Origin: Deuterostichococcus epilithicus | Taxonomy: Eukaryota; Chlorophyta; Trebouxiophyceae; Prasiolales; Stichococcaceae | Direction of reading: 5' to 3' | Assembly: GCA_033439295.1 (NCBI GenBank) | Contig: JAVTLE010000010.1 | Span: 682,001-746,000, forward strand | DNA length: 64,000 nt | Part shown: piece after piece, positions 1 to 43,800 of the stretch | Position numbering within the stretch: the first letter of the stretch is position 1 | How the letters are laid out: every line of letters starts with the position of its first letter | Made by a program: the position numbers and the translations under genes | The notes under the pieces: model-generated | Databases searched by the model: none | Told to the model about the DNA's origin: nothing | The model's input: the letters and a program-made list of their open reading frames with translations, nothing else

Positions 1-126
1 TCTGCCTGTCACATGTTCAGCAGTCCTCCGATGTGTGACAACTGAACGTTGGGTGAACATGCACCGCCTGGCGACGGTGCCATCCCGGGCCGCGGCCGCT
101 GCTGAGTCGGCTGCGAACTCGTGCAG

Positions 127-36719: not shown

Positions 36720-39679
36720 TCAAGAGGCAGCAAGGCGCGCGGCCTCAGCTTCCAGTGCATCGAAGTGGCCGCACAGCGAGCTCCACTGGTCGGCCTGCAG
36801 CATCATCACACACCGCCACTTCGAAATGAAGCTTGGTGTCAGAAGGACGAGGTGTGCTTGAGAACCAACATGCCGAGGTTCGACACGACTGGCAGTGTGC
36901 AGCGCTCCAAGCTCTCCGATGTGCTGCGCAACCTTCACAATGGGTATGGAAAGCGCATCACCGGCATGTCCAGGCCCTTGGCGCCCGGCAGCTCCTCGGT
37001 CTGACCCTTCTTCACATAGAACTCGCGCACACTGCACCGATCGACGACAGATACTGATCGCGGATGCTGTTTCTCATACGCATGAGTGAAGATAAAGACA
37101 GGCGGCGGGTTGGCCATAGGTGGCGTGGAAGACGAAACTCTGTTGCACCTGACCCGCGCGGTGCCTTTGAACACCTGGATGGACGCCTTCCGCCTGTGCA
37201 TATTGCACCAGACGCATCTGAATTCAAGGTACGAGGCACATCCAGGGACGCCCTGTTGGGCCTCTGCTCGACACTCGAGACCATTTCCTGCAGAAGTGGC
37301 CAGAGAAAACCGTCCCGCCAGCGGCGCCACATCGCTAGCGCACGCGCTGGCAGCTTCCCGCTGGCACCGTCTCCCGGGCCAAAGGAGCAGGTACAAAGGA
37401 GGAATTTGGCGACCTGTTGCCCAGGTCGTGCGCGAAGCTCGTGTCGGACGCCTGCAGCGCCGCCGTCAGACCGGCCGACGTGCCCCTGAGCAGCGCAAAC
37501 TGCTCCTGGGACAGTGCGATTCCCTTCTTCCCCGGCAGCTGCTTCCCGTCTTTCTGCAGCGCAAGCGAAACTGTGCGGCTGATCTCTCGGGAGCTACTGT
37601 GCAGTTTCCCTCTTGCAGGATTCGCAAATGCAGATCACGGACCAAGCCGCATCGTTGACTGCAGCAGACAACCAGCTTGCGCAGGTGCGCGAGAGCAACA
37701 CATACAGGGAAGAGCCCAGCGGCTGCAGTGAGGGCATGTAAGCAGCCTGCGGCAAGCAGCAGCAGTGGCCATGCTGTCTTCCAAGGAGCACAGCCAATGC
37801 GGCAGCTAAACCCGTTCTTGATAGTCAGGACTCACCTCGTAGGTCTCTCGCAAGTCCACCAGCACTTTGCCGTTGTACGTTCGTACAGACGCCCGCCGGT
37901 TGGCGGCGATGCTGACAGCAAAGTCGTCGCCTAGCGCCGCCGGCGACGCCTGCTGCGCCGGGCCGCCGTCTGCAGCTGCTGCGTCTGAAGCTGGTGCCGC
38001 AGCCCCTGAGGCGTCTGCCCGCCCTGTGCAAAAGAGGTCGAGTACCCTGGACGGCTGGCTTACCGCCGATGTACGAGACCCTTGATGCACGTGTGCCAGA
38101 AACAGCAGTGAGAGAGGGACAGCGAAACTCAACACTGCTGCCTCTGGGTGGCACGGGCAGCGATGCGCCTCCCATCGGCATCGAAGCAAGAGACATGCTG
38201 ACCTGCCGGCGCCGCCGCCTGCGGCCGCAGCGCGTCCACTGCTGCCTGCACCGCAGCGCCGTCGCCGGCGCGCAGCGCCTGCCACTCTGGCACTTGCAGC
38301 GAGACACCCTTCTTGCCCGGCAGCTGCTGCCCGTCCGCCTGTGCCGCGGCGAGGAATGTTTGAAAGTCTTGGCCTGCTTCAAACACCGACCGCACAGCTG
38401 CTTGCACTCGCGGATAGTGCAGCCGCTTGCATACCCCAGAGATGCGTCAGGCCCAACGGCTCGGGTCCCGAGGCCTCACCCCGTCATACCACTCCCGCAG
38501 GTCCACACGCGGCTGGTCCCTGAACAGACTGACGCTCGCGCGGCGGCTGCCGGACCCCAGCTCCAGGCAGTAGCTGGCGTCGGCGGCCGCCAGCGCGGCG
38601 TCTATTGCGGGCGCCGCGCCACGCAGCACGCCCCACTGGCCGGCCGTCAGCGCCAGCCCCTTGCGCCCTGGGTGCAGCTCGCTGGTCGCCAAGTCCTTGT
38701 ACACCTCCCTGCCGCGGCGCTGGAACCAGCCTCAACTAGGACGTGTGGGTTGATTGGCAAGTCCGTCTGTGGGCCCTTTCGAAACAGCGAGCCGGGCAGG
38801 CGTCGAGCCGCATCTCTGTGCATCTCCCCGTGGCGGCGGGACATGCCCTCGACCAAGGTGTGTCGGATTGCATCGTCTCGTTAGCATGCTGGTCGAGGCT
38901 GTTGCCAGCCTTCAAACAGCCTTCCGAACAACGGACTCTCAATCTCAATTTGTAGGAATGCTTGGCTCACCGGACGTCGACTTGGATGCTGCCCTTGAAG
39001 AGGCGTACTTCCACGCGCTTCATCTCCGACAGCTGCAGCACCGTGCCCTCAGCGGGCGAAAAGGCGACAGGAGCCGCGCCGCCGCCGCCTGCAGGCTGCG
39101 CAGCGGGCGCCTTGCGCTTGCTTCCCACTGCCGGGGCTGGCTCCGGCGGCAGCAGTGCTGAGTCCAAGAACTTATCGATTTCGTCCTGCAAGGGCACCAT
39201 CATGTGTGATGTGTCCAGAAGGGCAATCAGCAGGCATTGTCGAGCTCAGAATGGTGCTGAAATGTGGATGTGGATCGCGAGAGGTTCTTGCAGAAGCGTC
39301 ATCAACAGCGTTGTCTGCGGCATGGCGCTGCAGCGGCGCCGCAGCGGCGCCGGTGAGCGCAGCGTGCACAGCATACCTTGATCACAGCAGAGTATCGCGC
39401 CATGTCGACGCCGATCTCGGCGGCGAGCGTGTCTCTGCGAGTCGCAAAAGATGTTTGTTGATCGTGCCACCTTATGCTGGGCTCGCCTGTGGCAGCCAAA
39501 CTGTCAGTCTAGGAGCGCCTCCGATGGCAGGGTGATGTTCCCAACTGGTTCTAAGGCGCCCTGGAAGCGGCTTCGTGCTTCGTCTGCGCATTGCCGCACC
39601 GGATCTGTCGCTCTGTCGTGTTGTCAAGGTCCACGTCTGGCAACATCAGTCCGAGTCTAGATCTGATTCGCGACTCCAT
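36720..39679 (-). CDS. KELP-like DEK_C protein with four PC4 domains
   Basis: Ten exons in phase (39679-39600, 39434-39377, 39185-38971, 38708-38480, 38338-38203, 38023-37836, 37553-37414, 37193-37149, 37031-36962, 36794-36720) encode 411 residues. Residues 1-57 form a DEK_C domain (ERQIRDTLAAEIGVDM, IKDEIDKFL). PC4 domains follow at roughly 93-160, 162-231, 272-338 and 339-408. Each has the strand pair, e.g. RRASVRTYNGKVLVDLRE, then the P-G-x-K-G turn (HPGRKGLAL, LPGKKGVSL, LPGKKGIAL, LPGAKGLDM) and a closing helix. Domains 1-2 and 3-4 are directly abutted, with a 40-residue Ala-rich linker between the pairs. PC4/p15 binds single-stranded DNA as a dimer and serves as a transcription coactivator; plant KELP has one DEK_C and one PC4. 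Each pair here could fold as a built-in dimer (inference). Domain 4 replaces the first Lys of PGKKG with Ala. Confidence 0.88.
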
Positions 39680-40836: not shown

Positions 40837-43800
40837 TTAGCTGGCGCCGATGGCGCGCCAGTCGGACGCGATGGGCGCCTGGATCAGGTGCTCCGGCACC
40901 CCAAAGCCGGTGCACAGGTCGAGCGCCGCGCGGCCGCCGTCAGCGGCGAGCGCGCCGCACAGCTCGTTGACCCGGGACCGCAGGGCAGCCACGTCGTCGC
41001 CCGTCAGCGCACCGGCGGCCAGCAGGAAGGAGGAAGCACGCTCCACGCGCGTGAGGCCGTACAGCGTCGCCAGCGCCTGCGGGTGTGGCAAGGCCAGATG
41101 GTCGGTGGCCCACGGTGCAAGCATGGCAAGCAGGCAAGCGTGCCCAGCCGCGTGCACTCGGGAGCAATCGCCTCGGATGCGTATGATGCGGCCCCCGTTG
41201 GTACTCGATTTTGCAGAGTAGAGGGGGCATGCGTAGCTGAGGAGGCCTCGGCTCCCCTGTTTGTGTGCGCGTGACCAGATTGGCATCGCTGCTCGGGGTT
41301 TTGAACCAAAAGGTCTCGTCACTGAGCAGGGTCTCGCCAAAGCTCTCCCTCGCCCGTATCGCGGCGGCAGGCTGGCAGAGCATGCCATGGCAGGTCGGCA
41401 TGCTCCGCCACCAAGCTGTCGAGGGAGGGGACCCTGCCGGAGTGTGGACCCTGCTGCGGCCAGGACCCAGCAAGGCGATGCTTTTGAAATTTGAAATGCA
41501 AGGAAAATAGCACCTCCAGGGCGGCGGCGGAGGACGCCGGCGCATTGGCGAGCTCCGCCACGAAGTCGTCCAGGGACAGTGCGTCAACGTGCGCCCAGCC
41601 CAGTTGCTGCACCAGGTCGCCATTGTCGTCGAAGGCAGCGGCGCTCGCGGCGGCGGCCGCGCCCTTGCCGCCGCCCGTCGACTTTGCCGCCGCCGCCATC
41701 GCGCCCGCGACCTCCGCCGTCAGCGCCTCCTCCCTGCGGTGTGCGGTCAAGGAACAGGCTCGACCGGATGACAGCCCTCTGGCAATGCGGGGGACGGCGG
41801 CCCAGACAGCCCGCACCACAGGGCACCTGCAAGCGTCCTCGTGCTCAAGAACGCATCGTTGGTGAGGGTGCGGCAGAGCCGCCATTGCCCAGTGCAGCAA
41901 AGCTGCTACGCCCCGGTGACTTGCGAGAGGCTCCTTCATTCCATCGACGCCAGCCTCGACAGTCTGCTGAAGCCGCCCAAGTGCAGCGCGCTGTAGCGCG
42001 CAGCGACCGCCGACAGCCGGCAAGGCACTGACGTCAGGAAGTCAACAGCACCCACCGGAAGTGCAGCAGCTGCGCGCAGGCGGCCAGCGGTGCAGCGGAG
42101 CGCAGCGCGACGTCCGGCACGCCCGGCGGCGCAGTGCGGCGCGCCGAATCCAGCAGACCCTTGGCCACCTGCAACATGATGCCAGGAGTTCGCCTAGGAC
42201 TGAGACAAGAATACAGTTTTTCAGCCATAAAATCTCACTTGTGAGCTCATATTTCAGCCTTCTGCCGCATGGCGCACAGACACCAGCAGCCCCTTAGCCT
42301 CCTGCGCCACAATAACAGGCGCCAAGAACGACAAGCAGACCTCAACTTGTGTGCGGCTAATTGAAAATGCCATATCCACATGTAGTAGACTGTGTGTGTG
42401 GACATGAAATGATGACACTTCAGCCCGAGGCGGCGCAACAACCAGATCAAAGCAGGCGCTGCACGCATGGTGTGCACAACACACAGCACGTGCACAGCTG
42501 TTGTCAGCAGCGGCAGCAGCCTCCCCGCACCTGCTGCATCATGACCGGGTTGGCGCCCTCGAAGGTGACGTCCACATCCATGTCGTTCTTCAGTGGCCCG
42601 ATCCTGTTGGCCGCCAGGAAGCCTGCAGCCGGAACAGGGACACTCCTTACCGCTGTTCGGCACCGCTGTTCTGTAGTTTGGCAAGGTGGCCTTCGATAGC
42701 ATATCACCGCACAAAGCGGGCGACCGATGTCGTCGAGTAGACATTGCCAAGCAGGGCCGCCAGCAGGGCATCGCGACCAGCGGCGCAGCAGTGGCAGCCG
42801 GGTCGCGCACCCATGCCGCCGCAGCACTCGCGGCAGGCTTGCAAGATCTCCACGCGGTGCCAGGTGGCGGCAGCCTTGAGGCCACTGCTGCGCACATGTA
42901 CCAGCTTGGCGTCCTGCGGCCGCCTATCCTTGGCGATGAGCTGCGGGTCGGAAAGATGCACTGCCGTCAGCCCCGGCCTTTGTCTCTGTACGTTCTAGGG
43001 AAGTTTCGCACTTTTGAGGTGCTGCCATCGCGCTGTCACTTCCCATACCACCGGTTGCGATGGACGGGGCACAGCAGGAAACCAGGAACGAGTGTGCACA
43101 GGCAGTGGGTTCCTCGTCGCTGTCACTCATGTGTGTCGACGCACGAAGTACCTTGAGCCGGTCCATGGACAGGTGCATCGCGTAGGTGGTTGCCAGTGCC
43201 GAGAACAGCAGCCGCTGGTGCGTTAGGTACTCCAGCACCTGCGCCCAGATATCACAGTATCAAGCCTGAGTGTCAGAATTTAGTCATCCAAGATCGGCAG
43301 AATGAACCCCATGCTGTGCCCGTGCAGCTGTTGGTCGAACTGCATCATGAAAGTGCGCAGAGTCGCAGCAAGGGTGCTCATGACATGGCCGGAGCGCACC
43401 ATCTTATTCTGGAACTGGGGCCGCGACGCCGAGTAGCGGATGGCGATGGTGACGCCTGCAACATGGCATCATGGGACCATAATGCAGCGCATAGGAAAAC
43501 CCGGCAAAGCACTGTCTTGTTTTCTTGAACCGTTCAGTACAAGGCAGGTTGCCAGAGCGCCACAGAGTGGTGCGACGCACCGATCTTGCAGGCGTCAATG
43601 GCGCCCTGCCCGATGAGCATGCGGCCGGTGGTCAGGCCACCCACCATCGTGCCAAAGCGCGCGCCCACGCTGGCAATGGGGCTGGAGTAGGTGCCTGGAC
43701 AATTAAGCGATGCCATTGTGAGCGCCAGCGACAGGCTTCACCAGTATTGTCAGGAGCTCCAGACACCGGACCCAATATTTCCAACCCAGACGTTGAGAGC

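Follow-up and report, generated by a model that had tools for sequence, protein, structure and literature searches.

A 64,000-nucleotide stretch of the green alga Deuterostichococcus epilithicus (contig JAVTLE010000010.1, positions 682,001 to 746,000; hereafter the window) carries a gene for a 411-residue protein in which one N-terminal DEK_C domain is followed by four PC4 units (U1 to U4), arranged as two abutted pairs. We propose, with a probability of roughly 0.6, that this protein is a single-stranded DNA (ssDNA)-binding coactivator of the KELP/Sub1/PC4 type, whose single chain incorporates the dimer that PC4 normally forms from two molecules, the pairs being pseudo-dimers. Each abutted pair would form an intramolecular pseudo-dimer of two beta-beta-beta-beta-alpha units, that is, a two-faced ssDNA clamp, the helices packing across the pair as they do in PC4 and PURA. 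The flexible linker would join the two clamps, and the DEK_C domain would provide a further contact. A single molecule would then stand in for two PC4 dimers where DNA is melted in transcription or repair, and the linkage could tighten the grip on melted DNA or allow two melted places to be bridged.

Pfam bears out the layout given in a preliminary description of this DNA, namely one DEK_C domain and four PC4 units in two abutted pairs (Table 1). Scored as isolated units, the four PC4 domains reach 53.8–72.9 bits, far above chance, the Pfam cut-offs being 25 bits for PC4 (PF02229) and 24.8 bits for DEK_C; the succession of a beta-sheet and then a helix, typical of the PC4 fold, is also predicted. 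U1 and U2 are contiguous, as are U3 and U4, and the 39-residue linker between the pairs is within about one residue of the 40 announced earlier. A short Ala/Pro/Gly-rich spacer, which includes a basic stretch, separates DEK_C from U1. The combination of an N-terminal DEK_C with C-terminal PC4, as seen by Pfam, is that of KELP-type proteins; given that there are four PC4 domains instead of a single one, we class the protein as a KELP variant and not as an ordinary KELP. The whole protein gave no Pfam match to PurA (PF04845) at E ≤ 1 and is therefore not a PUR protein; Whirly (PF08536) was likewise without a match at this threshold. A Pirin_C_2 hit on U3 (18.6 bits for a cut-off of 22.9) was treated as chance.

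Plant KELP has one DEK_C and one PC4. The order of the domains is the same here, whereas the number of PC4 units differs and pairing can take place within the chain. Human PC4 and MoSub1 are one-domain homodimers not known to carry DEK_C, and their DNA-binding domain aligns with each of the four units (29–46% identity in local alignments of 45–63 columns). Between the units themselves, identity is 36–47%: U2 and U3 are the closest pair (47%), while U1–U3 and U2–U4 reach 37% and 36%, respectively. Since the units resemble each other about as much as they resemble human PC4 and MoSub1, they are not the product of a recent duplication, in agreement with the preliminary description, which had regarded them as old. 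It had added that they are kept by selection, which we infer from the DNA-contact residues that have been retained.

These contact positions were mapped on the residue list in the portion of PMC4350104 available to us. In all four units, the position of R70 is basic, that of F77 is aromatic, and R86 and K101 are kept. The W89 position is occupied by Tyr in each of them, as in plant orthologues according to the same portion of that paper, where W89Y PC4 is described as binding ssDNA with similar affinity and stacking one base instead of two. The R100 position is basic in three of the four units and is Ala in U4. Thus, R70, F77, R86, W89/Y, R100 and K101 are kept or conservatively replaced in U1–U3, and five of these six in U4. 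Two observations weigh against the proposed pair of clamps and favour units that differ in DNA binding: K97 is kept in none of them, being replaced by Leu or His, and U4 has lost both R100 and D84 (Ala and Ser). Moreover, U3 has Tyr at F77 and Asn at K78, and the lowest PC4 scores are those of U4 and U1. It is therefore conceivable, if rather doubtful, that only some of the four units bind DNA while the rest are structural or protein-binding, which would make an asymmetric clamp. Such a division of labour would be compatible with built-in dimers; the base-stacking and key basic positions are nonetheless mostly kept in all four units.

The structure of the first pair was predicted with AlphaFold 2 (AF2) for U1–U2 (142 residues), using a 31-row alignment that included borrowed bacterial rows. 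The resulting model is confident, and 130 of its 142 residues match the intramolecular domain formed by repeats I and II of PURA (10% sequence identity), while U2 of the model superposes on 1pcf with a root-mean-square deviation of 1.1 over 66 residues. In the PC4 dimer, ssDNA lies on the concave faces of two sheets and the helix of each subunit packs on the sheet of its partner (PMC4350104, same portion). The predicted U1–U2 fold has the features of a type I PUR domain, in that two beta4-alpha units fold onto each other within a single chain; it differs from PURA in that its units belong to Pfam PC4. The model suggests that PC4 pairing lies within the chain for U1–U2. The earlier suggestion that both pairs could be PC4 dimers linked covalently thus agrees with the model of the first pair, for which a structure prediction had been recommended; for U3–U4, a similar fold would follow by extension.

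Several points weigh against this reading of the model. With the two algal pairs alone, AF2 reached a mean predicted local distance difference test (pLDDT) of 58.2 and a predicted template modelling score of 0.37, and the PURA match of that model covered 62 residues only; this first model and its fold search were too weak and were left unused. The confident model depended on the borrowed bacterial rows, and a pLDDT of 72.8 was obtained in one of its five AF2 models. In that 31-row alignment, the U1 columns hold little besides the query and one bacterial tandem (L050), and the second algal pair is shifted, its U3 lying under U2, so that it lends no pair-to-pair support to U1–U2. AF2 may also impose a learned PC4-dimer shape on any two joined units. 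Finally, bacterial PC4 proteins are said to lack the dimerisation domain in the part of PMC4726151 that we could consult; this statement, if right, weakens the borrowed rows as well as the bacterial parallels discussed below.

It should be noted that the domain formed by PURA repeat III is intermolecular. By analogy, the units could behave as beads on a string, pairing mainly between chains (U1 with U1') or across the linker and forming multivalent oligomers on ssDNA instead of self-contained clamps. We consider this unlikely, since U1–U2 is modelled confidently as a single unit, with a PURA I–II match over 130 residues, and since the connector of about 6 residues between U1 and U2, which runs between model helix 60–68 and strand 75–77, favours the adjacent unit as partner.

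The ten in-phase exons of the preliminary description were confirmed. Spliced in frame, they encode 411 residues up to a stop codon at 36722–36720, and the nine introns (117–282 nt) are all GT-AG, with acceptors ending in CAG in every case. The coding sequence has a GC content of 0.684 (0.806 at third codon positions), against 0.588 for the introns. To evaluate the junctions, open GT-AG alternatives up to 45 nt away were scored against human PC4 and MoSub1. The chosen junction was the single best for introns 3, 4, 6, 8 and 9 and level with alternatives for introns 1 and 7; for introns 2 and 5, some alternatives outscored it (74 versus 28 and 86 versus 84, respectively), which we read as a presumed artefact of a fixed scoring stretch slipping into the adjacent unit. 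Several non-consensus donors, GTCAGC (intron 5, in the linker), GTCGCC, GTGCGG and GTGCAA, were counted as weak spots. Retention would bring an in-frame stop for eight of the nine introns; the exception is intron 8 (37032–37148), whose 117 nt are a multiple of three and free of stops, and which could be retained, adding 39 residues inside U4. A wrong gene model, in which DEK_C-U1-U2 and U3-U4 are separate genes or some isoforms lack units, is very improbable: the intron 5 donor, the possible in-frame retention of intron 8 and the junction scores that leave introns 1, 2, 5 and 7 undecided speak for it, but all four PC4 units are complete once spliced, and the two-gene version was provisionally rejected because, going back from exon 6 to the stop at 38381, the open frame contains no ATG, and because a read-through of exon 5 would end at 38131.

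Table 1. Coordinates of the PC4 gene and its parts in the window.
Feature	Extent	Position	Strand	Evidence
PC4 gene	10 exons, 411 aa	36720..39679	minus	GT-AG introns, open frame, Pfam
Exons 1–5		39679-39600, 39434-39377, 39185-38971, 38708-38480, 38338-38203	minus	
Exons 6–10		38023-37836, 37553-37414, 37193-37149, 37031-36962, 36794-36720	minus	
DEK_C	residues 2–53, exons 1–3	39165..39676	minus	Pfam, 36.2 bits full length, 40.4 isolated
PC4 unit U1	residues 93–162, exons 3–4	38576..39047	minus	Pfam, 55.1 bits; contact residues; modelled with U2
PC4 unit U2	residues 163–232, exons 4–5	38225..38575	minus	Pfam, 67.1 bits; modelled jointly with U1 as a single domain
Ala/Pro/Asp-rich linker	residues 233–271, exons 5–6	37929..38224	minus	39 residues
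PC4 unit U3	residues 272–338, exons 6–7	37446..37928	minus	Pfam, 72.9 bits
PC4 unit U4	residues 339–411, exons 7–10	36723..37445	minus	Pfam, 53.8 bits; Ala at R100, Ser at D84

The origin of the four units was examined with a tree of 19 chosen rows, in which the program marked only 3 of 16 inner branches as supported and U4 sits on a long branch. The four units group with human PC4 and MoSub1 (95/94), apart from the bacterial tandem PC4 proteins. U2, U3 and U4 form a group (93/91), at an unresolved fork with U1 and human PC4 (81/63). A simple doubling of an ancestral pair was not supported, U1–U3 and U2–U4 not being especially close. Copying of the whole U1–U2 pair into U3–U4 is not indicated by these sequences, because U2 is closest to U3 and both have a phase-0 intron at the same site, directly before the DG(Q/K)QLPGKKG stretch.

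We then searched the assembly (46.8 Mb, 21 contigs) for related genes. A PC4 hidden Markov model (E ≤ 10) gave six matches and the whole protein as query gave ten, all of them within this gene. This is a strong hint, but not proof, that it is the only PC4 gene of the genome, since the search went exon by exon and an unfavourably split PC4 gene could escape it. Elsewhere, DEK_C matched two exons on contig C11, of which one scored above the cut-off, and gave one weak match on C6; a second nuclear protein of this genome, encoded on C11, seems to contain DEK_C. The exons that follow DEK_C in the C11 gene (L006, 1260–3081) resemble, by eye, two SWIB domains. An exon match to Whirly lies on contig C7 (L005; 34.3 bits, above cut-off), which fits a genome of the green lineage. 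No PurA match was obtained in the assembly, in a search whose positive control was likewise silent. Around the PC4 gene, Rfam found nothing at gathering score between 35500 and 41500 of the window. Upstream of it on the same strand (40840–41070, minus) lies the C-terminal part of an acyl-CoA oxidase (ACOX, 24.2 bits for a cut-off of 22.1).

Chains with more than one PC4 unit occur elsewhere. Among 37 prokaryotic and viral loci whose frames were read, one (L050, from an Anaerolineae metagenome-assembled genome) has two back-to-back units in a 144-residue protein (L050:337-768). Pfam, applied to five of the 37 loci, found two PC4 stretches in L050, a single one apiece in the other four, and no DEK_C in L050. 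Genome surveys at E ≤ 0.001 covered 1194 genomes of three phyla; their counts are lower bounds, as diverged second units could escape, and every survey counts the genome on which it was centred, picked for having PC4 (in the case of G001, a tandem). In the phylum of the Anaerolineae genome, 10 of 400 genomes carried PC4, and three of these (G001, G094 and G267) had two matches within a single frame; the second phylum had PC4 in 7 of 398 genomes and no tandem, and the third had PC4 in 30 of 396 and one tandem (G996). Overall, 4 of the 47 PC4-bearing genomes have a tandem, or 3 of 44 without the three survey centres. None of the 1194 genomes has three PC4 matches in one frame, the three matches in G378 lying on three contigs.

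The tandem frames of G094 (L061) and G267 (L062) are both 199 aa long, and that of G996 (L067) is 179 aa; the G094 and G267 proteins are near-identical, and only one of their four matches reaches the Pfam cut-off. In the tree, L061 has halves that pair with each other (100/98), as do those of L050 (92/93, just under the program's mark), which suggests at least two independent bacterial PC4 duplications; the halves of L067 do not pair. Relatives of search profile A1 were not confirmed in viral contigs, nor those of A4 in genome contigs or viral contigs. U3 had no match in plasmids and phages at E ≤ 0.1 and none in PHROGs.

In the bay scallop, three of five AiPC4 proteins have two PC4 domains by SMART (PMC9223095). 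These proteins also have more than one PC4 per chain, but at most two; in the part of that paper available to us, DEK_C is mentioned nowhere and a pseudo-dimer interpretation was not met. The bacterial tandems (L050, G094/G267 and G996) similarly have two units per frame, in frames of 156–199 aa. Whirly and MRP1/MRP2 belong to sequence families other than PC4. The view of KELP as DEK_C plus PC4, taken in the preliminary description from general knowledge, agrees with a GAG-KELP fusion that bears PF08766 and PF02229 in the portion of PMC9784723 we consulted. Among the papers listed by a literature search, there was no report of a four-PC4 protein, which is weak evidence, as the phrase search overlooked the scallop paper. 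Since two-PC4 chains are on record and PURA provides a known single-chain PC4-like pair, the algal protein is a variant of a known theme, with four units.

The PC4-like folds described so far are homodimers or single-chain pairs such as those of PUR type I. Here, units of the PC4 family are joined as pairs, twice per chain, in a genome where no other PC4 gene was found. If both pairs act as clamps at once in a nuclear coactivator, the protein could hold two melted segments and might be free from dimer exchange, as the preliminary description had imagined. We put forward, as a tentative idea, that in this lineage the PC4 homodimer has been wholly replaced by an exchange-proof chain, a bivalent clamp made of two pseudo-dimers and DEK_C, which would hold two melted segments at once or grip the two strands of a single bubble at two places, and that even-numbered fusion is recurrent. 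If true, such fusion would be a repeated route from homodimer to single-chain domain, which PURA and Whirly may also have taken. These findings raise two testable questions: is dimer exchange essential to a general coactivator, and is a single protein able to keep hold of two melted sites? They also illustrate a way in which single-chain pseudo-dimers may come about, for which the bacterial cases offer a comparison.
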